The notes beneath the pieces were generated by a model that saw only the letters and a program-made list of their open reading frames with translations, did no database searches and was not told the origin of the DNA. Made by a program: the position numbers and the translations under genes. A DNA stretch of 35,382 nucleotides from an uncultured Pelagibacteraceae bacterium (GTDB taxonomy: Bacteria; Pseudomonadota; Alphaproteobacteria; Pelagibacterales; Pelagibacteraceae), in NCBI GenBank assembly GCA_902566805.1, contig CACFKJ010000008.1, positions 1 through 35,382 on the forward strand, read 5' to 3'. Of this stretch, positions 1,168 through 33,672 are shown one piece after another. How positions within the stretch are numbered: the stretch's first letter is position 1; each line of letters opens with the position of its first letter.

Positions 1168-2199
1168 ATGAGTAATCCAGTAATTAAGTGTGAATCTGTT
1201 TACAAAATTTTTGGTGTGAATGCTAAAAAGATGCTTCGTGAGTCAAATGGAAATGTAGATGCAAAAAAATTTCAAGAAAATGGATGTATAGTTGGTGTGA
1301 ATAATGCTTCTTTTGAAGTTTCTAAAGGAGAAATGTTAGTTGTAATGGGTTTATCCGGCTCAGGTAAATCAACATTGTTGAGATGCATTTCTAGATTAAC
1401 AGATGCTACGGATGGAAAAATTTTTATAGAAGGACAAGATTTACTATCATTAAACAATAAAGAACTTATAGAACTTAGAAGAAACAAAATGGGAATGGTT
1501 TTTCAAAGTTTTGCTCTACTTCCTCATAAAACAGTTGTAGAGAATATTGCTTTTCCACTGCAAATTAAAGGAATTAAGACTGAAGACAGTATTAGTAAGG
1601 CAATGGACATGGTTAAACTCGTTGGACTTGACGGAAGAGAAAATTATTTTCCAAGAGAGCTTTCTGGTGGACAACAACAAAGAGTAGGTATAGCTCGATC
1701 ATTAGCTGTTGAACCTGATATTTGGTTTTTAGACGAACCATTTTCTGCGCTAGATCCGTTAATAAGAAAAGAAATGCAGGATGAATTTTTAAGACTTCAA
1801 GACAAATTACAAAAAACAATCATGTTTATTACTCATGATTTTGATGAAGCATTAAAATTAGCTGATCGTATTGCAATTATGAAAGATGGTATAATTGAAC
1901 AATTAGATACACCTGCAAATATTGTTTTAAATCCAGCAACTGAATATGTAAGGAAATTTACTGAGGAGGTGCCTAGAGAAAAAGTTTTATTAATACAAGA
2001 TGTAATGGACCCATCTACTTCTGATAATTTGGGTGATTTGAAAGTTTTAAAAGATGAAATTATTGAAAATGTAGCTGAAAAAATTTTAACTCAGGAAAAA
2101 ACAGTTGCAGTGGTGGATAATAACAAAAAAATTGTTGGCTCTATTAATCCGACAAAAATAATTAATACAGTTTTTGGAGGAAGAAAAAATAATAATTAG
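1168..2199 (+). CDS. Glycine betaine/TMAO-type (ProV/OpuAA-like) ABC transporter ATP-binding protein
   Basis: Walker A GLSGSGKST, Q-loop VFQSFALLPHKTV, signature LSGGQQQRVG, Walker B IWFLDEPFSALD; ProV-like N-terminal extension and C-terminal regulatory region. Confidence 0.92.
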   Translation: MSNPVIKCESVYKIFGVNAKKMLRESNGNVDAKKFQENGCIVGVNNASFEVSKGEMLVVMGLSGSGKSTLLRCISRLTDATDGKIFIEGQDLLSLNNKELIELRRNKMGMVFQSFALLPHKTVVENIAFPLQIKGIKTEDSISKAMDMVKLVGLDGRENYFPRELSGGQQQRVGIARSLAVEPDIWFLDEPFSALDPLIRKEMQDEFLRLQDKLQKTIMFITHDFDEALKLADRIAIMKDGIIEQLDTPANIVLNPATEYVRKFTEEVPREKVLLIQDVMDPSTSDNLGDLKVLKDEIIENVAEKILTQEKTVAVVDNNKKIVGSINPTKIINTVFGGRKNNN

Positions 2200-10411: not shown

Positions 10412-12094
10412 TTAAAATAAACCCTCAACTTCTCCACTATCATTTATTTTAATAGAATCGGCAGCTGGAATTTTTGGCAATCCTGGCATTGTCATGATAG
10501 ATCCACAGATAACTACTATAAATTCTGCCCCAGATGAAAGTCTTACTTCTCGGATAGGAACCACATGTCCTGAAGGAGCTCCTTTTAAATTTGGATCTGT
10601 AGAGAAGCTATACTGAGTTTTAGCAACACATATTGGTAGATTTCCAAAACCTTTTGATTCAAAATCTTTTAATTGTTCTCTAATTTTAGTATCGGCCACA
10701 ACTTCACTTGCATGATAAATTTCTTGAGCAATAGTTTGTATTTTTTTAAATAAAGGAGATTTGTCCTCATATAAATATTTAAATGAGTTTTTATTACTAC
10801 AAATATCCACAACAATATTTGCTAGATCTTTTGTACCTTCTCCACCATTTGACCAATGTGAACAAATAGATGACTTAACACCTAAAGTTTTACAAAAATT
10901 CATAATCTCATCGATTTCTTTATCTGTGTCAGTAATAAAATGATTTACAGCAACAGCTACTGGTAAACCAAATTTTCTTACATTGTTTATATGTCTTTCT
11001 AGATTCACTAACCCCTTATTAAGAGCTTTAACATTTTCATTTTTTAAATCTTCTTTAGCAACACCACCATGCATTTTCAAAGCACGAATTGTTGCTACTA
11101 TTACAACACAGTCAGGTTTTAAACCTGATTTTCTACATTTAATATTTATAAATTTTTCGGCTCCTAAATCAGCGCCAAATCCAGCTTCGGTTACAACATA
11201 GTCTGAAAGTTTTAATCCAGTTTTTGTAGCAATAACCGAGTTACAACCATGTGCAATATTTGCAAATGGTCCACCATGAATTATTGCAGGATTATTTTCT
11301 AATGTTTGAGTTACGTTAGGTCTAATTGCGTCTTTTAATAATACCGTCATTGGACCTTGAGCATTTAAATCTTTTGCATAAATTGGCTTCTTGTCTCTAG
11401 TATAAGCTACTGTAATATTTCCAATTTTCTCCTCTAAGTCTCTCAAATTTTTTGCTAAGCAAAATATAGCCATAATTTCTGAAGCTACTGTAATATCAAA
11501 ACCATCTTGTCTAGGATATCCATTTGCAACCCCGCCAAGATCAACAACTATTGATCTTAATGATCTATCATTCATATCCATGACTCTTTTCCAAACAATT
11601 CTTCTAACATCAATGTTTAATTTATTACCCCAATAAATATGATTATCTATCAATGCAGACAGTAAATTGTGAGCAGATGTAATTGCATGAAAATCTCCTG
11701 TGAAATGTAAATTAATTTGTTCCATTGGAACAACTTGTGCATATCCACCACCAGCTGCTCCACCTTTCATACCAAAAGATGGACCTAAACTTGGTTCACG
11801 AAGACAAACTATAGATTTTTTTCCAATTTTATTTAATCCATCACAAAGTCCTACAGATGTAGTTGTTTTACCCTCACCGGCAGGCGTTGGCGTGATCGCA
11901 GTAACTAAAATTAATTTCCCATCTTTTTTATCTTTAAAATTTTCTAGATACTCAGATTTAATTTTAGCCATGTATCTTCCGATTGGACTATATGCCTCAG
12001 CTTTATCTGGCACATCTATTCCATCAAGAATATCTTGTATGGGTTTCATTTTAGCTGCTCTAGCTATTTCTATGTCCGATTTAATTTTACCCAT
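10412..12094 (-). CDS. fhs: Formate--tetrahydrofolate ligase
   Basis: [89 protein letters not shown] are diagnostic for Fhs. Confidence 0.97.
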
Positions 12095-12222: not shown

Positions 12223-13479
12223 ATGCAAAAGTATTCCGTATTTAGTCTGATAAAAAATGCTTTAAAAGGGCACAAAGACTGGGAAGTTGCCTGGAAGGAC
12301 CCAGCTCCCAAAAGTGAATATGATGTTATAATTATAGGTGGAGGTGGACATGGTTTAGCCACTGCATATTACCTAGCAAAAGAGCATAATATTACAAACG
12401 TAGCTTTAGTTGAAAAAAGCTGGATTGGAGGAGGGAACGTAGGAAGAAATACTACAATACTCAGATCAAATTATATGCATGATGAAAATGGTTTGTTCTA
12501 TGAAAAAGGAATGGATCTATGGAGAAGCATGAGTCAAGATTTGAATTTTAATGTAATGTATTCACCTAGAGGAATAATTAATCTTGCTCACTCTGATGCC
12601 CAGATGAATGCTTATTCGAGAAGAGGAAATTCAATGAGGCTAAATGGAATTGATGCAGTTCTATTAGGTAGAGAGGAAGTAAAAAAATTAGTTCCAATGT
12701 TAGATTTTTCTGACAATGTTAGATTTCCAATTTTTGGTGGTTTAATGCAACCAAGCGGGGGAACCGCAAGACATGATGCGGTAGCTTGGGGTTATGCAAG
12801 ACAAGCAGATTCAATGGGAGTAGATATAATTCAACATTGTGAGGTTAGTGGATTTGACATAGCTAACGGAAAAATAAAAGGAATAAGAACCTCCAAAGGA
12901 AATATAAAAGCAAAAAAAGTTGGATTATGTGTTGCAGGAAGTACTTCGGTATTAGCAGAAATGTTAAACATGACATTACCAATCGAAACACATTTATTGC
13001 AAGCTTGTGTATCAGAACCGATAAAACCAATATTAGATCATGTAGTAACATTTGGTGCTGGACATTTTTATTGTAGCCAATCTGATAAAGGAGAAATGGT
13101 TATGGGTGGAGATTTAGATGGATATAATAGTTACGCACAAAGAGGAAATCTTCCTACATTACAACATGTTTTAACAGAAGGAATTGCGATGTTTCCATTT
13201 CTTAGCAAATTAAAAATGCTAAGAACTTGGGGTGGTATAATGGATATGTCAATGGATGGATCTCCAATTATTGATAAAACACATATTGATGGTCTTTACT
13301 TGAATTGTGGTTGGTGTTATGGAGGGTTTAAAGCTACACCAGTTTCAGGTTGGACTTTTGCTCACACAATAGCCCAAGATAGAGTTCATGAATTAAATGC
13401 TGGTTTTAGTTTAAGTAGATTTAATACTGGTCATTTAATAGATGAAAAAGGCCTTGGTACCAAAACATGGATTTCATAA
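12223..13479 (+). CDS. soxB: Sarcosine oxidase subunit beta
   Basis: DAO-type FAD motif VIIIGGGGHGLATAYYLAKEH, VALVEKSWIGGGNVGRNTTILRSNY; followed by delta, alpha and gamma subunits. Confidence 0.95.
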   Translation: MQKYSVFSLIKNALKGHKDWEVAWKDPAPKSEYDVIIIGGGGHGLATAYYLAKEHNITNVALVEKSWIGGGNVGRNTTILRSNYMHDENGLFYEKGMDLWRSMSQDLNFNVMYSPRGIINLAHSDAQMNAYSRRGNSMRLNGIDAVLLGREEVKKLVPMLDFSDNVRFPIFGGLMQPSGGTARHDAVAWGYARQADSMGVDIIQHCEVSGFDIANGKIKGIRTSKGNIKAKKVGLCVAGSTSVLAEMLNMTLPIETHLLQACVSEPIKPILDHVVTFGAGHFYCSQSDKGEMVMGGDLDGYNSYAQRGNLPTLQHVLTEGIAMFPFLSKLKMLRTWGGIMDMSMDGSPIIDKTHIDGLYLNCGWCYGGFKATPVSGWTFAHTIAQDRVHELNAGFSLSRFNTGHLIDEKGLGTKTWIS

Positions 13480-13749
13480 ATGTTATATATTAAGTGTCCT
13501 TATTGTGGAATGAGATCTCAAAATGAGTTTGCTTATGGTGGAGATGCTAATGTTAAAAGACCGGAATTAAACGAAGAAGTATCAGACAAAATTTGGGATG
13601 AATTTGTTTACTTACGAAAAAGTCCAAGAGGTAAACATATAGAGCTTTGGCATCACATATCAGGATGTAGACAATGGTTTAAAGTACAAAGAGATACAAC
13701 CACACATGAAATTTTTAGAACAGCCGCGATTAATGAAGATATAAAATAA
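13480..13749 (+). CDS. soxD: Sarcosine oxidase subunit delta
   Basis: MLYIKCPYCGMRSQNEFAYGGDA... and HHISGCRQWFKVQRDTTTHE; Zn-ligand Cys; position between soxB and soxA. Confidence 0.95.
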   Translation: MLYIKCPYCGMRSQNEFAYGGDANVKRPELNEEVSDKIWDEFVYLRKSPRGKHIELWHHISGCRQWFKVQRDTTTHEIFRTAAINEDIK

Positions 13750-16745
13750 TGTCCCAAGAATATAGATTAGACAAAGTTGGATTAGTAAATAGAGATAAAA
13801 AAATCTCTTTCAAATTTAACGGAAAAAAATATTTTGGTTATGAGGGAGATACACTCGCATCTGCATTAATAGCTAACGGAGTACATCTGGTAGGAAGAAG
13901 TTTTAAATATCATAGGCCAAGAGGTTTTTTTGGAGCTGGTGTAGATGAACCATATGCAATTGTTCAATTATATAGAAATGGAGAAACAGATCCAAATTGC
14001 AGAGCAACAGAACAAGAATTATTTGAAGGCTTAGAGGCAAAAAGTGTAAATTGCTGGCCAAGTGTTAATTTTGATATTGGTGCAATAAATAATTTTTTAA
14101 ATATATTTTTACCTGCAGGTTTTTATTACAAGACTTTTATGTGGCCTCGAAGTTTTTGGTATAGAATTTATGAGCCATTTATAAGAAAAGCCGCAGGTTT
14201 TGGATCAGCATCAAAAAAACATGACAAAGAAAGATATGAGCATAAGTATGAATATTGTGATTTACTTGTTACAGGATCAGGACCTTCTGGTTTAGCAAGT
14301 GCTTATTCAGCAGCCAAAAATGGCGCTAAAGTAATATTAGCTGAAGATAAACCTAGATTTGGGGGAAGCTTATTAACTAGCGAAGCTAACATTGGAAACC
14401 AAAGTGGAAAGGAGTGGGCTGAAAAAATTATTTCTGAACTACAAGAAATGCCAAATGTAACAGTTAAAAATAGATCTCAAGTTTTTGGATATTACGATCA
14501 TAATATGTTAGTTATGTCTGAAAGGATAAGCGATCACTTACCCGAGACTAAAAAATTTACTCCTAAACAGAGACTTTGGTATATAAGAGCTAAAGAAGTT
14601 GCGATTTCTTCAGGCTCAATTGAAAGACCTATTGTTTTTGGAAATAATGATACACCTGGAGTGGTTTTGTCATCAGCGGCAAAAGAGTATTTAAAAGTCT
14701 ATGGGGTTCTTGTTGGAAAAAAACCATTAATTTTTACAAATAATGATAGTGCTTACGAAACAGCAATCGAATTTAAAAAAAATGGAATTACTCCTGTAGT
14801 ATTAGATTCAAGAAGTAATCCAGACTCTGAAATTATAAGCGAAGCGGTATCAATGGATATTGATATTAGATTTTCTCATGTAGTAGTTGCGGCAAAAGGT
14901 TATAAAAAAGTAAAAAAGGCAGAAATTACTAAAATTTCTGAAGATAAAAATGAATTAGGTAAAATAGAAAATATTAATTGTGATTGTATATGTGTATCTG
15001 GTTTTTGGACACCAACAATACATTTGTCTTCACAATCAGGAAATAAAACTAAATTTGATGAAAAAATTGATGCTTTTATACCTGGAAAATCTAAACAAAA
15101 TGAAACAACTTTGGGCTCAGCTAATGGAGTTTTTAATCTAGAAGATACTTTAAAAACTTCATTTGAAGCTGGATATGAAATATCTAAAAAAATAACAAAA
15201 AATGATAATAAAATATCTATACCGCAGTCTTATGAAAAAAAACAATCAAAACATGATAAGTTTTGGTGTGTCCCACTTCCTAAAAATAAAAAATATAAAA
15301 GATTTTTAGATTTTCAAAATGATGTATCCGTAACTGATATTGAGCTTGCATTAAGAGAAGGTTATAGATCTATTGAGCATGTAAAAAGATATACAACTTT
15401 AGGGATGGCAACAGATCAAGGAAAAACAAGTAATCTTAACGGTTTGCAACTTGTTTCAAGTATAGAAAACAAAGTAGTTCCATCTGTTGGTCATACTACT
15501 TTTAGACCACCATATACACCTGTTTGTATCGGAGCAATTGTTGGTAGAGAAATAGGAAAGCATTCTAAACCAACAAGAAAATCCCCAATGCATTCTTGGC
15601 ATGAAAAAAATAATGCCGTATTTGTAGACGCTGGAGTTTGGTTAAGACCAAGATATTATAAACGTGGAAATGAAAATTTATTTCTTGCATCAAAGAGAGA
15701 AGCAGAGAATGTAAGAAAAAATGTTGGAGTATGCGATGTAACCACATTAGGAAAAATTGATGTAAAGGGACCCGATGCTGCAGAGTTTTTAAATAGGGTA
15801 TATACAAACGCTTGGTTAAAGCTTCCGATTGGTAAAGCTAGATATGGAGTAATGTTAAGAGAAGATGGAATTGTAATGGATGATGGAACAACTACAAGAA
15901 TATCAGAAAATCATTACCATATGACTACAACTACTGCACAAGCAGCAAATGTTTTATCTCATCTTGAATATTACCTACAGGTAGTTTGGCCAAAATTAAA
16001 TGTTAATGTGGTATCAACAACAGAGCAGTGGGCAGGTGCTGCTATCGCAGGACCAAAATCAAGACTGTTAATGCAAAAATTATTTAAAGACTTAGATGTT
16101 TCCAATGAAAGTTTACCGTTTATGGGTTATGTTGAAAGCAATTTATCAGGAGTACCTGCTAGGATATTTAGAATTTCTTTTTCTGGTGAACTTGCTTACG
16201 AAGTAAACGTTGAGTCGGATAATGGTAACTTTATGTGGGAAAAAATAATGGAAGCAGGTCAAGAATTTCAAATTCAACCCTATGGGACTGAGGCTTTATC
16301 AACTTTAAGAATTGAAATGGGACATGTAGCAGGTTCGGAATTAGACGGAAGAACAATTCCGTATGATAATGGTTTAGACGGGTTAGTGAGTAAAAAGAAA
16401 GATTTTATTGGAAAAAGATCATTAATTAGAAAAGCATTTACTGCTAAAGATAGACAAAGAGTAGTAGGAGTAGTTCCTTTAGATAAAAAAACAAGTATAC
16501 CAGAAGGATCTCATCTAGTTAAAGATGCAAAAGCAAAACTACCAAATCCAAAACTGGGTCATATTTCAGCGTCATGTTGGAGCGTTGAACATAACAATCC
16601 ATTTTCATTAGCAATTTTAAAAGATGGAAAAAATATGATAGGGCAAAAATTATTCGCTATGTCTCCGTTAAAAAATAAAACTATTCCTGTTGAAATTGTG
16701 TCTTCACATTATGTAGATCCCAAAGGCGAAAGAGTAAGATCATGA
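13749..16745 (+). CDS. soxA: Sarcosine oxidase subunit alpha
   Basis: N-terminal FNGKKYFGYEGDTLASALIANGVHLVGRSFKYHRPRG, NAD/FAD domain LLVTGSGPSGLASAYSAAKNGAKVIL, C-terminal GcvT domain (GVCDVTTLGKIDVKGPDAAEFLNRVYTN). Confidence 0.95.
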   Translation: MSQEYRLDKVGLVNRDKKISFKFNGKKYFGYEGDTLASALIANGVHLVGRSFKYHRPRGFFGAGVDEPYAIVQLYRNGETDPNCRATEQELFEGLEAKSVNCWPSVNFDIGAINNFLNIFLPAGFYYKTFMWPRSFWYRIYEPFIRKAAGFGSASKKHDKERYEHKYEYCDLLVTGSGPSGLASAYSAAKNGAKVILAEDKPRFGGSLLTSEANIGNQSGKEWAEKIISELQEMPNVTVKNRSQVFGYYDHNMLVMSERISDHLPETKKFTPKQRLWYIRAKEVAISSGSIERPIVFGNNDTPGVVLSSAAKEYLKVYGVLVGKKPLIFTNNDSAYETAIEFKKNGITPVVLDSRSNPDSEIISEAVSMDIDIRFSHVVVAAKGYKKVKKAEITKISEDKNELGKIENINCDCICVSGFWTPTIHLSSQSGNKTKFDEKIDAFIPGKSKQNETTLGSANGVFNLEDTLKTSFEAGYEISKKITKNDNKISIPQSYEKKQSKHDKFWCVPLPKNKKYKRFLDFQNDVSVTDIELALREGYRSIEHVKRYTTLGMATDQGKTSNLNGLQLVSSIENKVVPSVGHTTFRPPYTPVCIGAIVGREIGKHSKPTRKSPMHSWHEKNNAVFVDAGVWLRPRYYKRGNENLFLASKREAENVRKNVGVCDVTTLGKIDVKGPDAAEFLNRVYTNAWLKLPIGKARYGVMLREDGIVMDDGTTTRISENHYHMTTTTAQAANVLSHLEYYLQVVWPKLNVNVVSTTEQWAGAAIAGPKSRLLMQKLFKDLDVSNESLPFMGYVESNLSGVPARIFRISFSGELAYEVNVESDNGNFMWEKIMEAGQEFQIQPYGTEALSTLRIEMGHVAGSELDGRTIPYDNGLDGLVSKKKDFIGKRSLIRKAFTAKDRQRVVGVVPLDKKTSIPEGSHLVKDAKAKLPNPKLGHISASCWSVEHNNPFSLAILKDGKNMIGQKLFAMSPLKNKTIPVEIVSSHYVDPKGERVRS

Positions 16746-21137: not shown

Positions 21138-22109
21138 ATGAATTATAAAATTGATAATTTACAGTACTGCAATTGGTCTAGGGAAGTATTCGAAATTAAT
21201 CGTGAAGCAGGATTAGATGCTGTTCATGTTACTGTAGTTTATCACGAAGACTATAAAGAGTTTCAAAAAAAAGTTGAAGAATGGAACAATTTGTTCAAAA
21301 ATAATAAAGATTTAATTTTTTTAGGTAAAGATTTTAAAGATATCGAAAAAGCAAAGAATGAAAATAAAACAGCGATATTTTTTGGTTTTCAAAATTGCTC
21401 TCCTATAGAGGACGATATTGAATTAGTGGAAAAAGTTTATGAATCTGGATGTAGATTTATGCAACTCACATATAATAATCAATCCCTTTTAGCGACCGGA
21501 TGTTACGAAAAAAATGATAGTGGTGTTACAAACTTTGGTAAAGAAGTAATCAAAGAAATGAACAGACTGGGCATAGTTGTAGACATGTCCCATTCTGCAG
21601 AGAAAAGCACATACGATGCAATTGAGCTTAGCCAAAAACCTATTGCTATTACTCATGCTAATCCAAATTTTTGGTATAAAGCTATAAGAAATAAATCTGA
21701 TGAATTATTGAAAACTTTATCAGACAGTGGAGGAATGTTAGGATTATCTTTATATGCTCACCATTTAAAAGATAAATCAGATTGTACAATTGAAAGTTTT
21801 TGTGAAATGGCTGCTAGAACAGCAGAAATAATGGGTGTAAAAAATATAGGTATTGGATCTGACCTTTGTTTAAATCAGCCTGACAGTGTAGTTGAATGGA
21901 TGAGAAATGGAACGTGGGCTAAAACAAAAAACTACGGAGAGGGAACAAAAGAAAAATCTGGTTTTCCAAAACAACCAGAATGGTTTACAGACGCAAGAGG
22001 ATTTAAAAATATAGAAAATGGATTAATTAAAATTGGATTTAGCATCCAGGAAGTTTACGGTATATTAGGAAATAATTGGTTTAATTTTTATAAAGGTATT
22101 CACAAATGA
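21138..22109 (+). CDS. M19 (renal/membrane dipeptidase) superfamily protein, atypical
   Basis: M19-like core: FFGFQNCSPIEDDIELVEKVYESGCRFMQLTYNNQSLLATGCYE, GIVVDMSHSAEKSTYDAIELS, PIAITHANP, NIGIGSDLC, GNNWFNFYKG. The protein begins MNYKIDNLQYCNWS, so no canonical N-terminal DxHxD is present. Confidence 0.82.
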   Translation: MNYKIDNLQYCNWSREVFEINREAGLDAVHVTVVYHEDYKEFQKKVEEWNNLFKNNKDLIFLGKDFKDIEKAKNENKTAIFFGFQNCSPIEDDIELVEKVYESGCRFMQLTYNNQSLLATGCYEKNDSGVTNFGKEVIKEMNRLGIVVDMSHSAEKSTYDAIELSQKPIAITHANPNFWYKAIRNKSDELLKTLSDSGGMLGLSLYAHHLKDKSDCTIESFCEMAARTAEIMGVKNIGIGSDLCLNQPDSVVEWMRNGTWAKTKNYGEGTKEKSGFPKQPEWFTDARGFKNIENGLIKIGFSIQEVYGILGNNWFNFYKGIHK

Positions 22110-23767
22110 AAGTGCAACTAAGAGAGCCAAAATTTGTAATGAAATTATCAAAACTAGGTTCCTTTCATCAAACTAAATTATCTTTTTTAAGATCTTTTTT
22201 AAATGAATTTAAGGATTGGAAATATAAAAGAGATTTGTTTGATTTAGATGAATATGGTTATGGTAGAGCGGTATATTCATTTCAAAAAAAAAAAAGAATT
22301 TATTCTTTAGTTTGTTTTGCAAATAAAATAAATGATGATGAAAGATCAGACAGAGTTATTGCAACAAAATGGGATGCTGCATTCACTTTACATGATGGGA
22401 TACCAACTAAACTTGACCTAGACCGTTTATCGGAAAACGTACCAAAACAAGAAGTTGGAAGAGTTTCTTATAAAGAGCTCACTCTTTCAAGAGCAAATAA
22501 ATCTTTGAGAATTTTTGAACATGTTGTTGAAAGTTTATCTAATGGAGTTCAACCAGATAAAAATATTTTATCTAAAGTTGGTTATTTATATAGAACGACA
22601 GCAGTCTATGGATCAGGTAAATTTGGCCTCGCAGATAGATTTAGAATTAAGAATAGAAAAGAAATAAATGGACCTTTTAGATTAGAAATGATGCTAGTTT
22701 ATTTAGTTAGGCAATTTACTTTTGACCAAGTAAATCATATTGCAAAAAATAAAAATCCAAAAAAAGCAGTTGAACTAGATCCAGATATTTGCAGAAATTT
22801 GGGAATTGGCAATTCAACTGGACTTGGCATGGCACCTTTTATTGTAAATCATCCAACTCTCTTGAATAATTGGATACTTGCTAAAGAGACAGTACTTAAA
22901 AAAATTAGAGAAATTAAAAATGTTGACCCAAAAGAATTAGAATTATTTAGAAATTGTTTAATAAAATCTCAAAAAAATATTGAAAACTGGAAAACTGAAA
23001 GTGAATTTCAAATAAAAAAAATTAATGAATTAAAAATTGATTTAGAAAAATTTTCTAAATATCTAAATAATCAATTAGATATTAATAAAGAATATTTATT
23101 TAATGATATATATAATTGGGCCGAGAATAATTTAACTGATGAAGGTATAGAATATATTGTATCTTTAATGATGGAGCCTTACGATAATATAGTTAAACCA
23201 ATGATAAATGAAATGAGCTCTGACGAAGATGAATATTTTGAAATTCCTACAAGTAGAACTATTCAAGAGCTTAGAAATATTTTGGAAAATAATTACTCAG
23301 AAATATTAAAAATTGATTTTTCAGATAAGCAAAGTAATCAAAATTTTTGGTTTATTTCAAAAAATAAAGAAGAACCAAGACTGGCTGATAGATATTTGCA
23401 AAAAGGATCTGAACTGGAACAACCTTTAGCAATAGCAAGAGATATTAAAAGGCTATATCAAAAAATATCTAATGAAAAAAATAGCTCGTCAGTCGGGAAT
23501 TTTTTAATTAAAAATAGTGAACTTAGACATGTTGTAAGAAGAGCATTTATTGTAGAGAAATTTCCCTATGCTGAAATTCAAGACAATATTATTGGTTCAA
23601 AATTAATCCCAATTGATATGTTGAGATTAAAATTATCTTTCTTTGGTGCTAATAAATTTGATCCAAGATCAGATAAATGGTTAAGAATATGTATGTTCCA
23701 AGGTGCTCCACTTCCAAATGAGCTTAACTCATTTAGCGAACAGTGGATTTATAATTCATTAAATTAA
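22106..23767 (+). CDS. Conserved-looking hypothetical protein (553 aa)
   Basis: Long ORF translationally overlapping both neighbours (ATGA with the M19 gene; TAATG with the next gene). No signal peptide or assignable catalytic motif recognised. Confidence 0.8.
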   Translation: MKVQLREPKFVMKLSKLGSFHQTKLSFLRSFLNEFKDWKYKRDLFDLDEYGYGRAVYSFQKKKRIYSLVCFANKINDDERSDRVIATKWDAAFTLHDGIPTKLDLDRLSENVPKQEVGRVSYKELTLSRANKSLRIFEHVVESLSNGVQPDKNILSKVGYLYRTTAVYGSGKFGLADRFRIKNRKEINGPFRLEMMLVYLVRQFTFDQVNHIAKNKNPKKAVELDPDICRNLGIGNSTGLGMAPFIVNHPTLLNNWILAKETVLKKIREIKNVDPKELELFRNCLIKSQKNIENWKTESEFQIKKINELKIDLEKFSKYLNNQLDINKEYLFNDIYNWAENNLTDEGIEYIVSLMMEPYDNIVKPMINEMSSDEDEYFEIPTSRTIQELRNILENNYSEILKIDFSDKQSNQNFWFISKNKEEPRLADRYLQKGSELEQPLAIARDIKRLYQKISNEKNSSSVGNFLIKNSELRHVVRRAFIVEKFPYAEIQDNIIGSKLIPIDMLRLKLSFFGANKFDPRSDKWLRICMFQGAPLPNELNSFSEQWIYNSLN

Positions 23768-24375
23768 TGAAAAGTTATAGCGAAATAGACACTACAGTAA
23801 AAAGAGCGAGCAAAGCTATCGGATTTTCTTGGGGAGACTCTGAAGAAATTGGGAAATGTATAAGATTACTCGAAATGTTAGGAATTTCTGGAGTAAGAAA
23901 TTTAAATAGTTACTTCAAGGTATATAACAAACAAAAGTTTCAAAACATTAATTTAATTTCAAAAGATAACTCTTCATCAATACCATATTGTCCAATTTCA
24001 GCTGGTTTGAACTTTTTAAATCAAATATCGCATATGGAAGAGCTAAGTGAAATTTCAATTAGTAATATTGCTTACCCAGTTCTTTTGATACCTTTTATAA
24101 GTCGCGCATCTTATATTTCAGGAAAGAAAATACTATTGAAAATTGATGGACAAAACTTGCTATTAAATTTTAATCAATCAATATATTCAAATTTTTCAGG
24201 TAAAGATGTATTAGAAAAATCAAAGTCTATAAATATTAAATTTCTAGAAAATGTAAATTTATTTTCAGAAGATGAATGGAAAGAGTTATATAAATTATCA
24301 GAAGATACATTCGTCGAGGAAAGTGATGAACTCAAGGAAGTAGCTGCAGGAGCAGGTCTAACAGATAATGACTGA
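23767..24375 (+). CDS. DUF3726-like hypothetical protein
   Basis: N-terminus YSEIDTTVKRASKAIGFSWGDSEEIGKCIRLLEMLGISGVRNLNSYF resembles the recalled DUF3726 pattern (E...A..AARGAG..WG.AEE.G...RWL). Family call is from memory. Confidence 0.6.
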   Translation: MKSYSEIDTTVKRASKAIGFSWGDSEEIGKCIRLLEMLGISGVRNLNSYFKVYNKQKFQNINLISKDNSSSIPYCPISAGLNFLNQISHMEELSEISISNIAYPVLLIPFISRASYISGKKILLKIDGQNLLLNFNQSIYSNFSGKDVLEKSKSINIKFLENVNLFSEDEWKELYKLSEDTFVEESDELKEVAAGAGLTDND

Positions 24376-25182: not shown

Positions 25183-26541
25183 TTAGCCTTTTACAACTTC
25201 TCTTGTGTTTGCGTTGAAAGACTCTTTAAAAGGTATATCTACTACTACTGCATCAACAGGCGTGCCAGGTGTATCAGAATATTTAGCTGGTAAATGTACT
25301 TTATATTTGGTCCCAACTTTCCCTTTTGGAAAACCATTTGCATTTAATGTTCCATCAAATGGCACATATCCCATAGCTATATTTTGTTTTTTTTCTGGGT
25401 GATACCAAGGAGATGTGATAAATCCAACAGGATCTCCTCCATCTGCATTAGAAATCAACCAAAAGTCAGGAGCATATTCTTCAATTGGCTTTCCACCCAA
25501 TTCAAGTCCTACTAATTGTAGTTTGTAAGGTTTTTTACCTGCTTTAATTTCTGCACCCATTTTTTCTAAAGCTGCTTTTCCTACATAGTCAGATTTTTTA
25601 TTCCATTCTCCTTTTCCAGATAAAGAAACTTGATATCCTAAATTACATTGAAAAGGATTATGCTGATGGTCCATATCTTGACCCCATGAAAGAATCCCTG
25701 CTTGAATTCTTCTATGATGTGCAGGTGCAATAACCATTAAATTATGTTTTTTTCCAGCTTCAAGTACTGCATTCCACATATCATCCGCATATAAAGTTGC
25801 ATCTCTTAAATAAATTTCATATCCAGCTTCTCCTGAGAAACCAGATTGAGAAATTACACAACTTCTACCAGCAACATTAACTTCTGCTAATCCGTAGAAT
25901 GGCATATTATCTAGATCAACTTGATCGCCAAGTAAATCTTTCATTAAAGCTTTTGATTTAGGTCCTTGAATTTGTACAGGACAAGCATCAATTTCTTCAA
26001 TAGTACAATTAAATTTTCCATCATGGTTTACACCTTGAAGATACATACCAATATCAGAGTCTGATAGTGAAAACCAAAATTCATCTTTTGAAATTCTAAG
26101 AAGAATTGGATCATTTAAAACTCCACCATAAGCATTGCATAAAATTACATACCTTGCTCTCATTGGTGAGATTTTTGTTGCATCTCTAGTTATTACATAA
26201 TCAGTAAATTTTTCTGCATCTGGTCCTTTAACTCTAATTTGTCTTTCAACCGCAACATTCCACATTGTTACGTGATTAACAATTGCATCATATTCAACCA
26301 TTGCTCCACCATCTTCAGGTTTTACATATCCTCTTGGATGGTAAATTCTATTGTATACTGTCGCTCTCCAACATCCAGCTTGCATCGATAAATGCCAGTA
26401 AGGTGATTTTCTTACTCTTGTTGAAATTAACATCTCAACTTTTGTAGGCCCACTTTGTCTTAAGTTATATGGAACTTCTCGATCAGATTGATCCACAGAA
26501 GTTGCATGTTTTAGTTTTGTATAGTCAAATTCGTTAGACAT
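25183..26541 (-). CDS. GcvT/DmdA-like THF-dependent aminomethyltransferase/demethylase family protein, substrate unknown
   Basis: GcvT-type motifs: VERQIRVKGPDAEKFTDYVITRD, PMRARYVILCNAYGGVLNDPILLRIS, VQIQGPKSKALMKDLLGD, SQSGFSGEAGYEIYL, DYVGKAAL, LVGLELGG. The N-terminal ISTRVRKSPYWHLSMQAGCWRATVYNRIYHP recalls the DmdA-type opening. Confidence 0.85.
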   Translation of the reverse strand: MSNEFDYTKLKHATSVDQSDREVPYNLRQSGPTKVEMLISTRVRKSPYWHLSMQAGCWRATVYNRIYHPRGYVKPEDGGAMVEYDAIVNHVTMWNVAVERQIRVKGPDAEKFTDYVITRDATKISPMRARYVILCNAYGGVLNDPILLRISKDEFWFSLSDSDIGMYLQGVNHDGKFNCTIEEIDACPVQIQGPKSKALMKDLLGDQVDLDNMPFYGLAEVNVAGRSCVISQSGFSGEAGYEIYLRDATLYADDMWNAVLEAGKKHNLMVIAPAHHRRIQAGILSWGQDMDHQHNPFQCNLGYQVSLSGKGEWNKKSDYVGKAALEKMGAEIKAGKKPYKLQLVGLELGGKPIEEYAPDFWLISNADGGDPVGFITSPWYHPEKKQNIAMGYVPFDGTLNANGFPKGKVGTKYKVHLPAKYSDTPGTPVDAVVVDIPFKESFNANTREVVKG

Positions 26542-27262
26542 ATTTGTTCTCCATCAACCACTTGTTAGTTTCCTTCAAGCCGCCGAATGTATAAATGTGG
26601 AAGAAATCAGTATGCGATTTAACTTTCCCAATTAAATCATTAGGGTCTCTAGGTTTCATTAAATCTAATGCCTTACTAAAATTAGATTTAAGAAAGTTTA
26701 AGGAATTTTTAGCACCTACAATATTAGCAAATTTTATTAAGCTAGTTATTTTTAGTGGTCCAGTAATTCCCACATGTACTGGAACTGTTTGTTTAGAAAT
26801 GAAATCTATGATTAACTGAGTATCTAATAACCATTGAGTTACTATATAGTCAGCGTAAGGCTTTTTATCTTTCATAGCTTTCTCCAATTTGGAATCGGAT
26901 ATATCAGGACTCCCCTCCGGATGTCCAGCGATTCCTATCTTGATACCCTCAAAATAACCGGTCTCCAAAAGCTGAATTGAACTATCAAATTTTCCAATTG
27001 GCTCTCTACTTCCACCTATTACAAGAACTTGCTTCACACCCCCATCTTTGCACCTAGCAACATACTCTTTAAGTTGTGCATCATTTTCAATAGATCTAGC
27101 TGGAAAATGAGGTATTGGATTACAACCTTTTTGAACTAATTTAATCGCTTGATCAGAGGTTTCTTTATAGTCACCCCCTGGAAGCATAGTAACATATACA
27201 TCTTTTAATGATGGTAAAGTGTCTAAGTCAGTTTTAGGCCCAATTTCTAAAGAAAAATTCAT
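26534..27262 (-). CDS. Compact methylenetetrahydrofolate reductase-like (MetF family) protein
   Basis: MetF-like landmarks: FSLEIGPK (cf. FEFFPP), IPHFPAR, QVLVIGGSREPIG, IAGHPEGSPDI, ADYIVTQWLLD (cf. TQFFFD), HVGITGP, FHIYTFGGLKETNKW. Only 242 aa. Confidence 0.8.
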   Translation of the reverse strand: MNFSLEIGPKTDLDTLPSLKDVYVTMLPGGDYKETSDQAIKLVQKGCNPIPHFPARSIENDAQLKEYVARCKDGGVKQVLVIGGSREPIGKFDSSIQLLETGYFEGIKIGIAGHPEGSPDISDSKLEKAMKDKKPYADYIVTQWLLDTQLIIDFISKQTVPVHVGITGPLKITSLIKFANIVGAKNSLNFLKSNFSKALDLMKPRDPNDLIGKVKSHTDFFHIYTFGGLKETNKWLMENKYV

Positions 27263-27325
27263 TATTGGATATTTATTTATTTTAAAATATCTGTCTATAA
27301 AAATCGAGATTATGCGATAAGAAGA

Positions 27326-28210
27326 CTACTTCTTCATTCCTCTATGCTTTTGTATTCTCTTACCATATTGTTGAGCAGCCCTATCAAAAATTATGGCTAA
27401 AGCTACTATCGCGAGTCCATTAAATAGACCTAGAGCAAGATATTGGTTTAAAACAGCTCTTAAAATAGGGACTCCTAGACCTTTAACTCCTATCATGGAT
27501 GCAATAACAACCATCGCTAAAGCCATCATTATTGTTTGGTTTACACCCGCAAAAACAGTTGGAAGAGCCAGAGGTATTTGAACTGTTCTTAATTTTTGTA
27601 ATTTTGTTGCTCCAAAGGCTTCACTAGCTTCAATAGTCTCTTTATCTACTTCTCTTATACCTAGATTTGTTAATCTTATTATTGGAGGGACTGCATAAAT
27701 ACAAATAGCAATTAACCCAGGCACTTTTCCAATTCCTAGTAACATTAATATTGGAATCAAGTAAACAAAACTTGGAATAGTTTGCATCATATCTAGAATA
27801 GGTAAAACTGATTTTTCAACTCGATCGGAACGTGCCATTAATACCCCAACAGGAATACCTACGGCCATACATATGATTACGCAGACTGTAATTATTGCTA
27901 CTGTAGCCATACAATCTTTCCACATTCCAAAATAACCTATTAAAAAAAATGATATTGCCGTTCCTAAAACAAGCTTCCAACTTCTTGATGCAATCCATGC
28001 TAGTCCACAAATTACACCTATTATTATTGGCCATGGTGAATTAATCATTAGTTTTTCTAGCCATACTAAAAAATATAGTAATGGATCAAAAAATGCTTCT
28101 ATTCCATCACCGTAAGCTTTTGAAAAATCTCTAAAAGCAAAGTCTATGCTTTTTCTGAACTCAGCAAGTTCAGCACGTTTCATTACAGGAAATTTAGTAA
28201 AAAATTCCAT
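27326..28210 (-). CDS. ProW/OpuAB-like ABC permease (single domain)
   Basis: ILDMMQTIPSFVYLIPILMLLGIGKVPGLIAICIYAVPPIIRLTNLGIREVDKETIEASEAFGATKLQKLRTVQIPLALPTVFAGVNQTIMMALAMVVIASMIG. Confidence 0.93.
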   Translation of the reverse strand: MEFFTKFPVMKRAELAEFRKSIDFAFRDFSKAYGDGIEAFFDPLLYFLVWLEKLMINSPWPIIIGVICGLAWIASRSWKLVLGTAISFFLIGYFGMWKDCMATVAIITVCVIICMAVGIPVGVLMARSDRVEKSVLPILDMMQTIPSFVYLIPILMLLGIGKVPGLIAICIYAVPPIIRLTNLGIREVDKETIEASEAFGATKLQKLRTVQIPLALPTVFAGVNQTIMMALAMVVIASMIGVKGLGVPILRAVLNQYLALGLFNGLAIVALAIIFDRAAQQYGKRIQKHRGMKK

Positions 28211-28225
28211 TTAATTCCTAAAAAA

Positions 28226-28257
28226 TTAACGAGCCTATTTAGTTATAGGCTCGTTAA
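28226..28257. terminator. Intercistronic stem-loop between binding-protein gene and permease gene (attenuator / RNA stabiliser candidate)
   Basis: ttaacgagcctat-ttagtt-ataggctcgttaa: perfect 13-bp inverted repeat, 6-nt loop; followed on the minus strand by a short T-run. Confidence 0.7.
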
Positions 28258-28275
28258 AAAATTAAGTTTTATATT

Positions 28276-29301
28276 TTATAAACCAATACCTTTTCTGATT
28301 TTATCTGCAACATTAGAAGGTACCCACTTTGTCCATACATCTGGATAACGAACTAAAAACTCAATAGCCGCATCCGAACCTTTTGCTTGGTTATCAGCCA
28401 TATATACAAGCATTCCATTCATTACTTCACCTGGATAAGTTCTTTTCTCTACATACTTAGTAGGACCTTTTCCAGCTTTCTCTTTAAAGCTTTTTGTAAT
28501 TAATGAATTAACTTCTGATTTTGTCCAAGCAGTTGGTTTTGGATTTGCACATTCACCAGCTGGTTTCATTATACAGTTATCCCAGTTATCTCTTCCAGCA
28601 AACTCTACGCCGAATTCAACAGGAATTAATCCATATTTACCAACCATTGATGTAGGGTTCCAGTAGTAACCAAACCAAGGTTTACCTGAGTCTGATGCTT
28701 TAGAAATTGTACCATCTAGACCTGCAGCAGAACCTGGATCAATTAACTTCCAACCTTTTTTTTCCATTTCATAAGCTACAAATAAATTTGCATTTGCTAG
28801 CTGACATCCCCAACCTGCAGGACATCCAACAAAAGCTCCTTTTGACGGATCTTCTTTATCTGGAAATAAATCCGGTCTTTCCAAAATTTGAAGAGCTGTC
28901 ATACCTTTTAACTCAGGATGTTTTTCAATTGATCCTGGAGTTAACCACCAACCTTCACCTAAGCCAGTAATCGGAGCTCCATTTGCTACGAATATTCTTT
29001 TTTCTTTAACTGCTACTTTTAAAGGTTCGTATACAGCATTTGCCCATTGCTCAGGGTTCATGTCTGGAGTACCTTTATCATTCATAGAAGTAAAAGTCGG
29101 CATAGTAGCACCTGGAACAAGTTCTACTTCACAACCATAACCTTCCTCCAGAATAACTTTATCTACGTTAGCCATTAACTCGGCAGATGCCCAGTTTTGT
29201 TCAGCAATAACTAGACTTCCACAATTTGCATTTGCGACATTACTTAATGAAGTAAATCCCAATATTACAAGTGCAGAAATAAGTATTCTTTTTATTTTCA
29301 T
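28276..29301 (-). CDS. OpuAC/ProX-type quaternary ammonium (osmolyte) ABC substrate-binding protein
   Basis: Signal peptide (MKIKRILISALVILGFTSLSNVANA); CGSLVIAEQNWASAELMANVDKVILEEGYGCEVELVPGATMPTF; Trp/Tyr-rich EGWWLTPG and WFGYYWNPTSMVGKYGLIPVEFG, consistent with an aromatic cage. Confidence 0.92.
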   Translation of the reverse strand: MKIKRILISALVILGFTSLSNVANANCGSLVIAEQNWASAELMANVDKVILEEGYGCEVELVPGATMPTFTSMNDKGTPDMNPEQWANAVYEPLKVAVKEKRIFVANGAPITGLGEGWWLTPGSIEKHPELKGMTALQILERPDLFPDKEDPSKGAFVGCPAGWGCQLANANLFVAYEMEKKGWKLIDPGSAAGLDGTISKASDSGKPWFGYYWNPTSMVGKYGLIPVEFGVEFAGRDNWDNCIMKPAGECANPKPTAWTKSEVNSLITKSFKEKAGKGPTKYVEKRTYPGEVMNGMLVYMADNQAKGSDAAIEFLVRYPDVWTKWVPSNVADKIRKGIGL

Positions 29302-29591: not shown

Positions 29592-30638
29592 ATGAAAAAA
29601 GATTTAATTACAAGACTTAACGAAGGACCTGTTCTTTTTGCTGAGGGATATTTATTTGCAATGGAAAGAAGAGGCTACCTATCAGCTGGAGCTTTTGTTC
29701 CTGAAGTTGTTTTAGAACATCCTGAAGTTGTTTCTCAATTACATAGAGAGTTTATAAGAGCTGGTTCAGAAATTGTACAAGCATTTACTTACTATGGTCA
29801 CAGAGAAAAATTACGTTTAATTGGTAAAGAAGAATTATTAGAACCTTTACAAAAAAATGCACTACAGATTGCTAAAGATGCAAGAGATGAATTTAAAGAT
29901 CTTGATTTATTAGTTTGTGGTGATGTTGCTAATACAAATATTTATGATCCAAATAATAAAAAAAGTCATTTGGAGTGCCAGAAAATGTATGAAGAACAAG
30001 TTGCTTGGGCAAAAGAAGCAGGTGTTGATTTTATAGTTGCTGAAACAATAAATTGGACAGAAGAAATGAAAATTGCTCTTAAAGCAATTAAAGACGAAGG
30101 ATTAATTGCTGTTACTAATTTTTCAATTAAAAAAGGTGATAAAACTAGAGAAGGTCATACTCCCGGCGATGCTTGTAAAATGATGGAAGATCTTGGAGCA
30201 GATGTAGTTGGTTTAAATTGTTATAGAGGACCAAAAATGACGATGAAGCTTTTACCAGAAATAAGAGAGAAAGTTTCATGTCATGTTGCTGCTTTACCAG
30301 TTCCATATAGAACTACAGAGGAACAACCAGGTTTTCTAAATCAAACCGATCATGGCTGCGATTGTATTCCTGGAGGTAATGCTTTTCCTGTTGCGCTAGA
30401 TAATTTATATTGCAATAGATTTGAAATGGCTGAGTTTGCAAAAGATTGTCAAAAACAAAATATTAACCTAATTGGAATTTGTTGTGGAGCTGAACCTCAC
30501 CATGTAAGAGAAATGTCAGTTGCTCTTGGAAGAAAACCAATCTCATACAAATATTATCCTGATATGAGTAGACATTGGCTTCATGGAAAAGATAAATCTT
30601 TTTTAGAATTAAATACTATGATGAAAGACAAATATTAA
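29592..30638 (+). CDS. bhmT: Betaine-homocysteine/homocysteine S-methyltransferase family protein
   Basis: VLFAEGYLFAMERRGYLSAGAFVPEVVLEHPEVV...HREFIRAGSEIVQAFTYYGHREKL; Zn-Cys motifs VVGLNCYRGP and LIGICCGAEPHHVREM; strong Shine-Dalgarno AAGGAGGAAAT upstream. Confidence 0.88.
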   Translation: MKKDLITRLNEGPVLFAEGYLFAMERRGYLSAGAFVPEVVLEHPEVVSQLHREFIRAGSEIVQAFTYYGHREKLRLIGKEELLEPLQKNALQIAKDARDEFKDLDLLVCGDVANTNIYDPNNKKSHLECQKMYEEQVAWAKEAGVDFIVAETINWTEEMKIALKAIKDEGLIAVTNFSIKKGDKTREGHTPGDACKMMEDLGADVVGLNCYRGPKMTMKLLPEIREKVSCHVAALPVPYRTTEEQPGFLNQTDHGCDCIPGGNAFPVALDNLYCNRFEMAEFAKDCQKQNINLIGICCGAEPHHVREMSVALGRKPISYKYYPDMSRHWLHGKDKSFLELNTMMKDKY

Positions 30639-33043
30639 TGGAAAAAAATGCCAAAGTGGTAATAATTGGTGGTGGTGTAGTTGGATGTTCTATTCTTTAC
30701 CATCTCTCTAAATTTGGATTAAAAGACTGCATTCTTCTTGAGAGGAATGAGTTGACTTCAGGATCTTCTTGGCATGCTGCTGGAAATGTTCATGTAATCT
30801 CTAATGATCCAAATATTTCTAGAATGATGGCTTATACAATTGGCCTCTACAAAGAAATAGAGAAAGAGTCAGGACATTCTTGTGGATTTAAACCAAGTGG
30901 AGGATTTTACTTAGCTTCAAATGATGTTTGGGCCGAATATCTTAAGAGAGAAAGGTCAAAAGCAAGATACATGGGATTAGATCAGGAATTTATTTCACTT
31001 GATGAAGTAAAAAAGAAAAACCCATTAATTGATCCTTCAAGATATCTTTTGGCATTATGGGATCCAATTGATGGAGAAGTTGATCCATCAGGAGTAACTT
31101 ATGCATTTGCAAAAGCAGCAAAAGTTCATGGTGGAAAATATTATACACATACAGTTGTTAAAGACACTAAACAAAAAGAAGATGGATCATGGAATGTTGT
31201 CACTGACAAAGGAAATATCAATGCAGAGATTGTAATTAATGCTGGTGGATTATGGGCAAGAGAAGTTGGTAACTTAGCTGGATTAAATTTACCTGTCCAA
31301 CCTATGGAACATCATTATTTAATTACAGAAGCTATTCCAGAAATTGAAGCTTTAGGTGACCAAAGACTTCCAATTGGAACTGATTTTGAAGGAAATATTT
31401 ATTTCAGACAAGAAGGAAAAGGTATGTTGCTTGGAACTTACGAACAAAAATCTACCCCATGGAAGGTCGATGGAACTCCAATGAATTTTGGACATGAATT
31501 ACTAGAACCTAAGCTTGATAATATACAAGATAGATTAGCAATTGGTTTTGAAAGAATGCCTGCGTTAGAAAAAGCTGGTATTAAAAATATAGTTAATGGA
31601 CCTTTCACTTTTGGTCCTGATGGAAGTCCCTTAATAGGACCTGTTCCTGGAATGAAAAATTATTGGGTAGCAGTTGGTGTAATGGCTGGTTTCTGCCAAG
31701 GTGGTGGAGTAGGAAAATGCATTGCTGAATGGATAATTGATGGAGAACCATCTATTGATGTTTGGGCAATGGATGTTGCAAGGTTTGGTGATTATGCATC
31801 TCCTCAATATGGAACAATAAAATCCTCTGAAAACTATGAAAGAAGATTTATTATGACTTTTCCTAACGAAACATTGCCAAAAGGAAGAAAACAAAAAACT
31901 ACAGCTTTATATGATCGCTTCATACAACAAGGAGCTGTAATGGGAGACTCTTTTGGACTAGAAAATGTTTTGTGGTTTGCAAAAAATAAAGAAGATGCTT
32001 ACGAAGAACCGACTATAAAAAGATCAAGGTCACACAATTATGTTTCTCAGGAAGTTATAAACGTTAGGGAAAATGTTGGCGCAATAGAAGTTGCAAATTT
32101 TTCTAAACATGAATTTAAAGGACCTGATGCTAGAAAATTTTTAGATTATATAATGGCAGGGAGAATACCTAAGCCTGGAAGAATTTCATTAAGCCCAATG
32201 CTCACATATAGAGGTAAACTTTATGGCGATCTTACTATTTCTTGTATAGATGAAAATGAATTTATGATTTTTGGATCTGGAGCAGCACAAGAAATGCATA
32301 GAAGATGGTTTGAAAGTCATATTAATAAATTTAATTTAAGTTATAAAAATCGTTCAGATGATTTTCATGGAATAGGTATTGCAGGACCAAAATCTAGAGA
32401 TTTACTTCAAAGATTAGTCAGAGAAGATGTTTCTAATGATAAGTTCAAGTTTAGAGATAGCAAAAGAATGTTTGTTGCTGGTGTGCCAGCTATAGTAAAC
32501 AGAATATCATTTACAGGGGAATTGGGTTATGAAATCTATGTAGCTCCACATTATCAAATTAAATTGTATGAAGAATTAATGAATGCTGGAAAAGAATTTA
32601 ATATCAAGCCTTTTGGATCAAGAGCGTTGATGTCTATGAGACTTGAAAAAAATTGGGGTGCATGGACATTAGATTATAGACCAGATTTTACGGCAAAAGA
32701 AACTGGATTAGATAAATTCATTAACTGGGATAAAGAATTCATAGGAAAAGAATCGGCTAAAAAAGACAATAGCCAAAGTAAACTAGTTCCTCTTATGGTA
32801 GAGACCAACGATATAGATGTTACTTACAATGAAGCGGTTTTAAAAGGTGATAAGAGTATAGGCTACGTTACATCCGGTGGTTTTGCACATTTTGTAAACA
32901 AGAGTGTTGCTTTTTCATATTTAAATACAAAAGAATTAAATTCTGAAAAAGGTATACAAGTAGAAATTAATGGAGACTTGTTTAATTGTTTAATAATCAA
33001 AGAACCACTTTATGATCCAAGTGGTCAGAAAATGAGAAGTTAA
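30638..33043 (+). CDS. Dimethylglycine dehydrogenase-like (DAO FAD domain + GcvT domain)
   Basis: VVIIGGGVVGCSILYHLSKFG, LTSGSSWHAAGNVH (covalent-flavin-type context), GPDGSPLIGPVPGMKNYWVAVG, C-terminal GIGIAGPKSRDLLQRLV, RISFTGELGYEIYV, FIGKESA; overlaps bhmT-like stop by 1 nt. Confidence 0.88.
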   Translation: MEKNAKVVIIGGGVVGCSILYHLSKFGLKDCILLERNELTSGSSWHAAGNVHVISNDPNISRMMAYTIGLYKEIEKESGHSCGFKPSGGFYLASNDVWAEYLKRERSKARYMGLDQEFISLDEVKKKNPLIDPSRYLLALWDPIDGEVDPSGVTYAFAKAAKVHGGKYYTHTVVKDTKQKEDGSWNVVTDKGNINAEIVINAGGLWAREVGNLAGLNLPVQPMEHHYLITEAIPEIEALGDQRLPIGTDFEGNIYFRQEGKGMLLGTYEQKSTPWKVDGTPMNFGHELLEPKLDNIQDRLAIGFERMPALEKAGIKNIVNGPFTFGPDGSPLIGPVPGMKNYWVAVGVMAGFCQGGGVGKCIAEWIIDGEPSIDVWAMDVARFGDYASPQYGTIKSSENYERRFIMTFPNETLPKGRKQKTTALYDRFIQQGAVMGDSFGLENVLWFAKNKEDAYEEPTIKRSRSHNYVSQEVINVRENVGAIEVANFSKHEFKGPDARKFLDYIMAGRIPKPGRISLSPMLTYRGKLYGDLTISCIDENEFMIFGSGAAQEMHRRWFESHINKFNLSYKNRSDDFHGIGIAGPKSRDLLQRLVREDVSNDKFKFRDSKRMFVAGVPAIVNRISFTGELGYEIYVAPHYQIKLYEELMNAGKEFNIKPFGSRALMSMRLEKNWGAWTLDYRPDFTAKETGLDKFINWDKEFIGKESAKKDNSQSKLVPLMVETNDIDVTYNEAVLKGDKSIGYVTSGGFAHFVNKSVAFSYLNTKELNSEKGIQVEINGDLFNCLIIKEPLYDPSGQKMRS

Positions 33044-33672
33044 TGGCTCAAAAAGATGTAGGTAACAAAGTACCTATCTATAAATTAAAAAAAACTGATG
33101 AAGTCATGAAGTATTATGACGAGTGGGGTGAGGGAAACAAGTATGATAAAGATATGGTTGATTGGAATTACACTGGTCCAAAAGAAACTACAGAAGTATT
33201 TATAAAATATTGTAAAGATAAAGATGCCAAAATATATGATGCTGGATGTGGCACAGGACTAGTCGGTGTAGAATTAAAAAAGTATGGGTTTAAAAATTTT
33301 TATGGAGCAGATCTTTCACAAAAACTTCTAGATTTAGTTCCAAAAGATCTTTATCAAAAATTAGATAAAGTTGATCTTAATAAATCAATTGAGGAAGAAG
33401 ACAACACATTTGATGCTATTATGTGTGTTGGAACATTTACTTTTGGACACGTAAAACCTCCAGCATTAGATGAGTTTATAAGAATAACAAAAAACAAAGG
33501 ATTAATTTGTTTTACTATTAACGAAGGAATTCACGAAGAATATGGATTTGACAAAAAAATAGAACAACTAAATAAAGATAATAAATGGAAAGAAGTTGAA
33601 TTTTTTAAGTCAAACTATATTGCAAGTAAAGATGTAAATGCTTGGCTGGGTTTATACGAAGTAATTAAATAA
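33043..33672 (+). CDS. Class I SAM-dependent methyltransferase
   Basis: AKIYDAGCGTGLVGVELKKYGFKNFYGADLSQKLLDLV SAM-binding motif I; FDAIMCVGTFTFGHVKPPALDEFIRITKNKGLICFTI. Confidence 0.85.
   Translation: MAQKDVGNKVPIYKLKKTDEVMKYYDEWGEGNKYDKDMVDWNYTGPKETTEVFIKYCKDKDAKIYDAGCGTGLVGVELKKYGFKNFYGADLSQKLLDLVPKDLYQKLDKVDLNKSIEEEDNTFDAIMCVGTFTFGHVKPPALDEFIRITKNKGLICFTINEGIHEEYGFDKKIEQLNKDNKWKEVEFFKSNYIASKDVNAWLGLYEVIK

Follow-up and report, generated by a model that had tools for sequence, protein, structure and literature searches.

An overlapping MetF-like/GcvT-like gene pair of Pelagibacterales and its proposed role in folate-dependent demethylation of glycine betaine

We analysed a 35,382-nucleotide stretch of DNA (positions 1 to 35,382 of contig CACFKJ010000008.1, assembly GCA_902566805.1; hereafter the window) from an uncultured Pelagibacteraceae bacterium of a small-genome group, whose draft genome comprises 0.90 Mb in 51 contigs and is 74% complete. 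The window encodes a GcvT-like protein that belongs, by its sequence, to a distinct clade within a known fold family, with a predicted substrate that is new. Members of this clade combine a tetrahydrofolate (THF)-type fold, including an equivalent of the catalytic Asp, with adjacency to a MetF-like gene and recurrent linkage to genes of dimethylglycine and sarcosine catabolism. We propose that the GcvT-like protein is probably a glycine betaine:THF N-methyltransferase, independent of cobalamin and oxygen, whose MetF-like partner oxidises 5-methyl-THF.

In the proposed mechanism, the GcvT-like protein would take one methyl group off the quaternary nitrogen of glycine betaine and pass it to THF, with neither a corrinoid nor oxygen, yielding dimethylglycine and 5-methyl-THF. 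The chemistry would be that of DmdA with an ammonium replacing the sulfonium group. The MetF-like protein would convert 5-methyl-THF to 5,10-methylene-THF for one-carbon (C1) oxidation by FolD, Fhs and formate dehydrogenase, and dimethylglycine would be degraded to glycine by dimethylglycine dehydrogenase or oxidase (DMGDH/DMGO) followed by SoxBDAG.

A conserved MetF-like/GcvT-like pair

The first-pass annotation of the window had joined four minus-strand genes into a candidate self-contained uptake and demethylation module. The four open reading frames (ORFs) do occur at the coordinates and in the order it gave, all with ATG starts:

28276..29301, minus strand: OpuAC-type binding protein with a DmpX-like pocket, accessory; 341 aa; PF04069 149.6 bits, 7yle 165 bits
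27326..28210, minus strand: permease of a betaine/choline-type ABC importer, accessory; 294 aa; PF00528 (BPD_transp_1) 99.3 bits
26534..27262, minus strand: compact MetF-like protein, proposed 5-methyl-THF-oxidising partner; 242 aa; MTHFR PF02219 26.9 bits
25183..26541, minus strand: GcvT-fold protein, proposed glycine betaine:THF methyltransferase; 452 aa; GCV_T PF01571 136.3 bits

The reported 8-nucleotide overlap of the last two frames (26534..26541) is real, and the two genes are likely to be translationally coupled across it. Some 50 genomes of the order share the GcvT-like protein at 84-98% identity, and within the genus the MetF-like protein is conserved at 79-87%; with identity this high across relatives, the ORFs are more than chance. 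The two genes were adjacent in all 20 relative genomes that we fetched. The conserved core is thus this overlapping pair, which is kept across the order.

The GcvT-like protein passed the Pfam cut-offs for GCV_T (136.3 bits; cut-off 25.6) and GCV_T_C (26.3 bits; cut-off 25.9). Scored against NCBIfam models with their own cut-offs, it failed those for DmdA (228.7 vs 410), GcvT (148.2 vs 300 and 131 vs 235.85), LigM (39.7 vs 580) and Tdm (145.2 vs 1100). In a phylogenetic tree, in which the order of some long, deep branches is unsure, 23 target-clade proteins formed one side of a branch (100/99), outside DmdA (100/100) and the other SAR11 paralog groups. Model scores and tree together rule out DmdA, GcvT, LigM or Tdm identity. 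The first-pass annotation, which had called for such a placement, was therefore right that the protein is not a GcvT, DMGDH or sarcosine oxidase subunit, and it lies in a clade of its own, not inside the characterised DmdA or GcvT clades. DmmD identity was rejected, with no DmmD sequence compared, on a published report that describes dmmDABC as absent from SAR11 (PMC5520151).

The nearest entry in the Protein Data Bank by both sequence and fold was DmdA (3tfh; Foldseek TM-score 0.82 normalised by target), the fold being judged from an AlphaFold2 model of moderate quality (pLDDT 72, with residues 1-70 below 50). D144 is equivalent to D96, the catalytic Asp of GcvT, and was invariant in 34 orthologs. 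An SPYWH..GCWR stretch also contains invariant W and H residues. An N-D-P motif is common to the target clade, DmdA and the neighbours of DmdA, and is absent from the GcvT, DMGO, DMGDH and SoxA rows of the alignment. The GcvT-like protein therefore resembles DmdA in its fold, catalytic Asp equivalent, N-D-P motif and expected methyl transfer to THF. Unlike DmdA, to which it is about 31% identical, it forms a separate clade, is linked to MetF and dimethylglycine genes, and carries an N-terminal VDQSDR..NLRQSG block that is missing from the aligned DmdA sequences. Genomes of the same genus have separate DmdA genes, 82-86% identical to that of P. ubique (3tfh), which marks the source as a SAR11-type organism.

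The MetF-like partner is divergent in sequence. It passed the Pfam MTHFR cut-off weakly (26.9 vs 24 bits), failed that of canonical MetF (TIGR00676, 22.4 vs 293.7) and scored 109.9 bits against PDB 7xg9. It was the sole MTHFR match found in the window's incomplete genome. In one further carrier of the clade, G012, the Pfam MTHFR model had no match at threshold, yet a protein search recovered the MetF-like gene. A check of marine SAR11, HIMB59 and SAR86 genomes found no canonical MetF; two same-family genomes lacking the clade had canonical MetF and no DMGDH-type match at threshold. SAR11 lacks MetE and MetH (PMC12478193), so that 5-methyl-THF would have no methionine sink, and the MetF-like protein is best read as oxidising 5-methyl-THF. 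The pairing is consistent with the earlier suggestion of a demethylation that yields 5-methyl-THF.

From family membership and gene order, we take the pair to be orthologs of SAR11_1264 (metF) and SAR11_1265 of Ca. P. ubique, which adjoin each other; the latter was described as a gcvT-like aminomethyltransferase of unknown substrate (Sun et al. 2011, PMC3160333). Relative to exponential phase, both genes shift the same way in strain HTCC1062 (PMC5069961). Sun et al. speculated that SAR11_1265 performs a second demethylation of the dimethylsulfoniopropionate (DMSP) pathway, from methylmercaptopropionate (MMPA) to mercaptopropionate. Its nearness to DmdA and the similar abundance of the two in Global Ocean Sampling data (PMC3160333) favour this idea, but MMPA is a thioether and not an onium compound, and Actinobacteria, Acidobacteria and Gemmatimonads also have orthologs, many of which adjoin dimethylglycine genes. 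We regard an MMPA demethylase as very improbable.

Gene neighbourhoods and the predicted methyl donor

Of 388 genomes sampled across the class, 18 had orthologs of at least 53% identity, not counting the window's own, and the next proteins were paralogs at no more than 41%. A genome collection held more than 590 candidate loci of the clade; the best 80 of these, most of which share 71-78% identity with the query, came from Alpha- and Gammaproteobacteria, Actinobacteria, Gemmatimonadota, Acidobacteria and other groups. The searches also revealed a second uncharacterised DmdA-like clade (FGFGTQIRKSPYFDATVRWGA) that is common in Alphaproteobacteria (L173-L177, L064-L074); these loci had neither dimethylglycine genes nor MetF or fhs nearby.

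We counted neighbouring genes in loci with full flanks outside SAR11 and HIMB59, and near-copy HIMB59 loci were counted apart. A DMGDH/DMGO gene lay near the clade in 34 of 49 such loci, against none of 18 loci of the paralog family (Fisher p 1.1e-7). The same 18 control loci had neither a MetF-like gene nor fhs, which were found near the clade in 19 and 13 of the 49 loci, respectively. The HIMB59 gene order is SoxB-D-A-G-DMGO-MetF-GcvT, with the DMGO scoring 733 bits against 1pj5, and Halomonadaceae and Marinobacter show the order GcvT-MetF-fhs. A Marinobacter locus also contains GbdR above its cut-off (493.3 vs 480) and a DMGDH-like gene, and a Nocardioides neighbour gene scores 515 bits against DMGO. 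The candidate DMGDH-like neighbours in Gemmatimonads and Acidobacteria are distant, with 23-25% identity to the DMGDH-like protein of the window. At one locus (L148), an MttB-family protein (17223-18764) is clustered with GcvT-like, GbdR-like and DMGDH-like genes.

Adjacency to MetF points to 5-methyl-THF as the product and hence, as in DmdA, to an onium donor whose methyl group is transferred without oxidation. Glycine betaine is the onium compound that precedes dimethylglycine and would thus be the donor. The first-pass annotation had left the substrate open; from the neighbourhoods in other bacteria we infer that it narrows to glycine betaine.

Two other readings bear on the same evidence. 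By the same mechanism, the clade could demethylate another quaternary or sulfonium compound (e.g. proline betaine, choline, carnitine, homarine or DMSP), with dimethylglycine genes nearby for other reasons. DmdA as nearest relative, the DmpX-like pocket of the window's binding protein with its DMSP-sulfur Tyr, and the absence of betaine genes at some loci would all fit such a donor. The linkage to DMGDH/DMGO, SoxBDAG and GbdR is nevertheless repeated in several phyla, separate DmdA genes exist in the same genus, and the importer is unlinked to the clade outside it, so that we consider another donor unlikely. Alternatively, the protein could trap formaldehyde on THF, as proposed for DmmD (PMC5520151), making 5,10-methylene-THF in the service of DMGDH, sarcosine oxidase or Rieske demethylases. 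The DmmD precedent, the linkage to formaldehyde-producing steps and the presence of GbcA in Halomonadaceae carriers speak for such a trap. The MetF partner (in those 19 outside loci and all SAR11 examined) implies 5-methyl-THF instead, the N-D-P motif is common with methyl-transferring DmdA and missing from the GcvT, DMGO and DMGDH rows, and many carriers have no GbcA; a formaldehyde trap is thus improbable.

We searched 39 carrier genomes for the known betaine demethylases. Five had MttB; three had GbcA above its cut-off, and another five had it at 300-640 bits; 15 had BHMT-like proteins (betaine-homocysteine methyltransferase) of at least 40% identity. Eighteen carriers had no MttB, no GbcA-like match of at least 300 bits and no BHMT-like match of at least 40% identity, although a gene missing from a draft genome counts for little and several carriers are incomplete. 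A DMGDH-type match was found in 19 of 19 carriers checked, namely these 18 and G012.

Several points weigh against betaine as the donor. Some carriers have other routes, namely BHMT (HIMB59, the sister family), GbcA (Halomonadaceae) or MttB, and at L148 MttB shares a cluster with the GcvT-like gene, so that the clade is not the sole route there. Several loci (SAR86, two of the Arthrobacter type and some Gemmatimonads) have no betaine gene nearby. Sampling was uneven, because the loci were ranked by similarity to a single alphaproteobacterial query and the 80 best were kept. Finally, we infer substrate, product and MetF direction alike, the substrate from gene neighbourhood.

The importer and further features of the window

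Further features of the window are:

28226..28257, minus strand: terminator-like hairpin, 13-bp stem and T-run, between binding protein and permease, after the binding protein
1168..2199, plus strand: ProV-type ATPase; TIGR01186 339.5 bits (cut-off 326.6)
10412..12094, minus strand: formate-THF ligase (fhs), C1 oxidation; NF010030 917.5 bits (cut-off 652)
12223..13479, plus strand: SoxB, sarcosine oxidase beta family; TIGR01373 676 bits (cut-off 529)
13749..16745, plus strand: SoxA, sarcosine oxidase alpha family; TIGR01372 1311 bits (cut-off 1164)
29592..30638, plus strand: BHMT-like protein, divergently oriented to the binding protein; PF02574 147.5 bits
30638..33043, plus strand: DMGDH-like protein, 801 aa; human DMGDH (5l46) 595.6 bits, nearly full length
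33043..33672, plus strand: SAM-dependent methyltransferase (SAM, S-adenosylmethionine) of the variable BHMT/DMGDH cassette; PF08241
33672..34847, plus strand: Rieske oxygenase, distantly GbcA-like; NF058607 118.5 bits (cut-off 670)

The binding protein and permease were present in six of the 20 fetched genomes, accompanied by the BHMT, DMGDH, methyltransferase and Rieske genes. A full-length close binding protein occurred in 10 of 37 same-genus genomes, the window's own included, and always adjoined the pair; one further copy was a contig-edge fragment. Most genomes of the genus carry the pair without the binding protein. The sister family has a complete importer, with substrate-binding protein (SBP), permease and ATPase in a row, which lies distant from the MetF-GcvT pair and adjoins BHMT-DMGDH in two of five fetched loci. 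The hairpin (28257-28226) that divides the four genes, and their lack of an ATPase, are two features that the first-pass annotation overlooked. It had named conserved linkage of the four genes in other genomes as the measure of its proposal; because only the MetF-GcvT linkage is conserved, the four-gene module is not borne out, and neighbourhoods in relatives, including the sister family, rule out a conserved four-gene unit. That the four genes nevertheless form one dedicated uptake-demethylation unit, as their constant adjacency within the genus might suggest, we consider improbable given the patchy importer genes, the missing ATPase, the hairpin and the sister-family arrangement. We propose instead that the importer is an optional uptake cassette of the betaine/DMSP type outside the conserved core.

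The best solved relative of the binding protein is 7yle, whose chain we read from its residue numbering as RnDmpX. Seven of eight RnDmpX pocket residues (PMC10030565) are identical, including the Tyr that contacts the DMSP sulfur, and A153 is replaced by G, so the protein likely imports betaine or DMSP. The pocket is thus like that of the DmpXWV DMSP importer (PMC10030565), from which the window's importer, of predicted specificity, differs in having no adjacent ATPase. The permease scored 265 bits against ABC_choXWV_perm, below the cut-off of 363.

No ATPase gene is adjacent within the four-gene set. The nearest in the window is the ProV-type ATPase, a candidate energiser of the importer, whose homologs (46-49% identity) adjoin the SBP and permease genes in the sister family. 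It is itself adjoined by a 717-residue permease (2203-4356) in which a choline permease model matches two stretches, apparently a fused double permease.

When gaps in relatives were examined for an importer ATPase, they held an amidinotransferase-like gene with a weak arginine deiminase family match in one (L037:1952-3061) and an arginase-family gene in another (L042:16428-17417), each between the DMGDH and methyltransferase genes of the BHMT cassette. The range of this cassette may thus extend to guanidino compounds, for instance creatine. The place of the SAM-dependent methyltransferase with BHMT/DMGDH is preserved in several relatives. At a HIMB59 locus (L213:5911-8006), two BHMT-like genes lie in tandem, and each shares about 73% identity with that of the window. 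A 553-residue protein with no Pfam match and its 202-residue neighbour (22106-24375) stay near the pair in most same-genus genomes. Rfam searches gave zero matches anywhere in the window and hence no sign of riboswitch control.

Relation to known betaine demethylation routes

The proposed route is closest in outline to MtgBCD with MetF2 (PMC12478193), in which the betaine methyl group passes to THF and is then oxidised by MetF, beside genes for the later betaine steps. MtgBCD differs in being cobalamin-dependent and made of three unrelated proteins, and MtgC is absent from Pelagibacteraceae (PMC12478193). LigM, the vanillate/3-O-methylgallate O-demethylase, is likewise a THF-dependent GcvT-fold enzyme of similar length that produces 5-methyl-THF, but it acts on an aromatic substrate and its model gave the GcvT-like protein the low score reported above. 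The GbcAB betaine monooxygenase and BHMT catalyse the same first step, from betaine to dimethylglycine; GbcAB differs in using oxygen and Rieske chemistry and releasing formaldehyde, and BHMT in having homocysteine as the methyl acceptor. We found no GcvT-type betaine demethylase in the open-access literature, with paywalled papers and preprints outside the search.

Few osmolytes in the sea are as abundant as glycine betaine. A 2025 study described the demethylation of this compound by marine bacteria as still 'elusive' and credited SAR11 with BHMT only (PMC12478193), and HTCC1062 oxidises betaine methyl groups (PMC3160333). The BHMT route links betaine use to methionine demand; a folate-only enzyme would explain methyl oxidation by HTCC1062 without cobalamin. 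On balance, we lean towards the view that a cobalamin-free, oxygen-free betaine:THF methyltransferase in several phyla constitutes an overlooked aerobic route of betaine demethylation beside GbcAB, BHMT and MtgBCD, by which SAR11 could oxidise the methyl groups of betaine with no methionine formed. Despite an 'incomplete' pathway, Arthrobacter sp. Rue61a can grow on betaine (PMC3534580). If our proposal is true, the enzyme could supply the missing step where dimethylglycine genes occur without a known betaine demethylase, and it would give a function to a core gene that has stood as 'unknown' since 2011.

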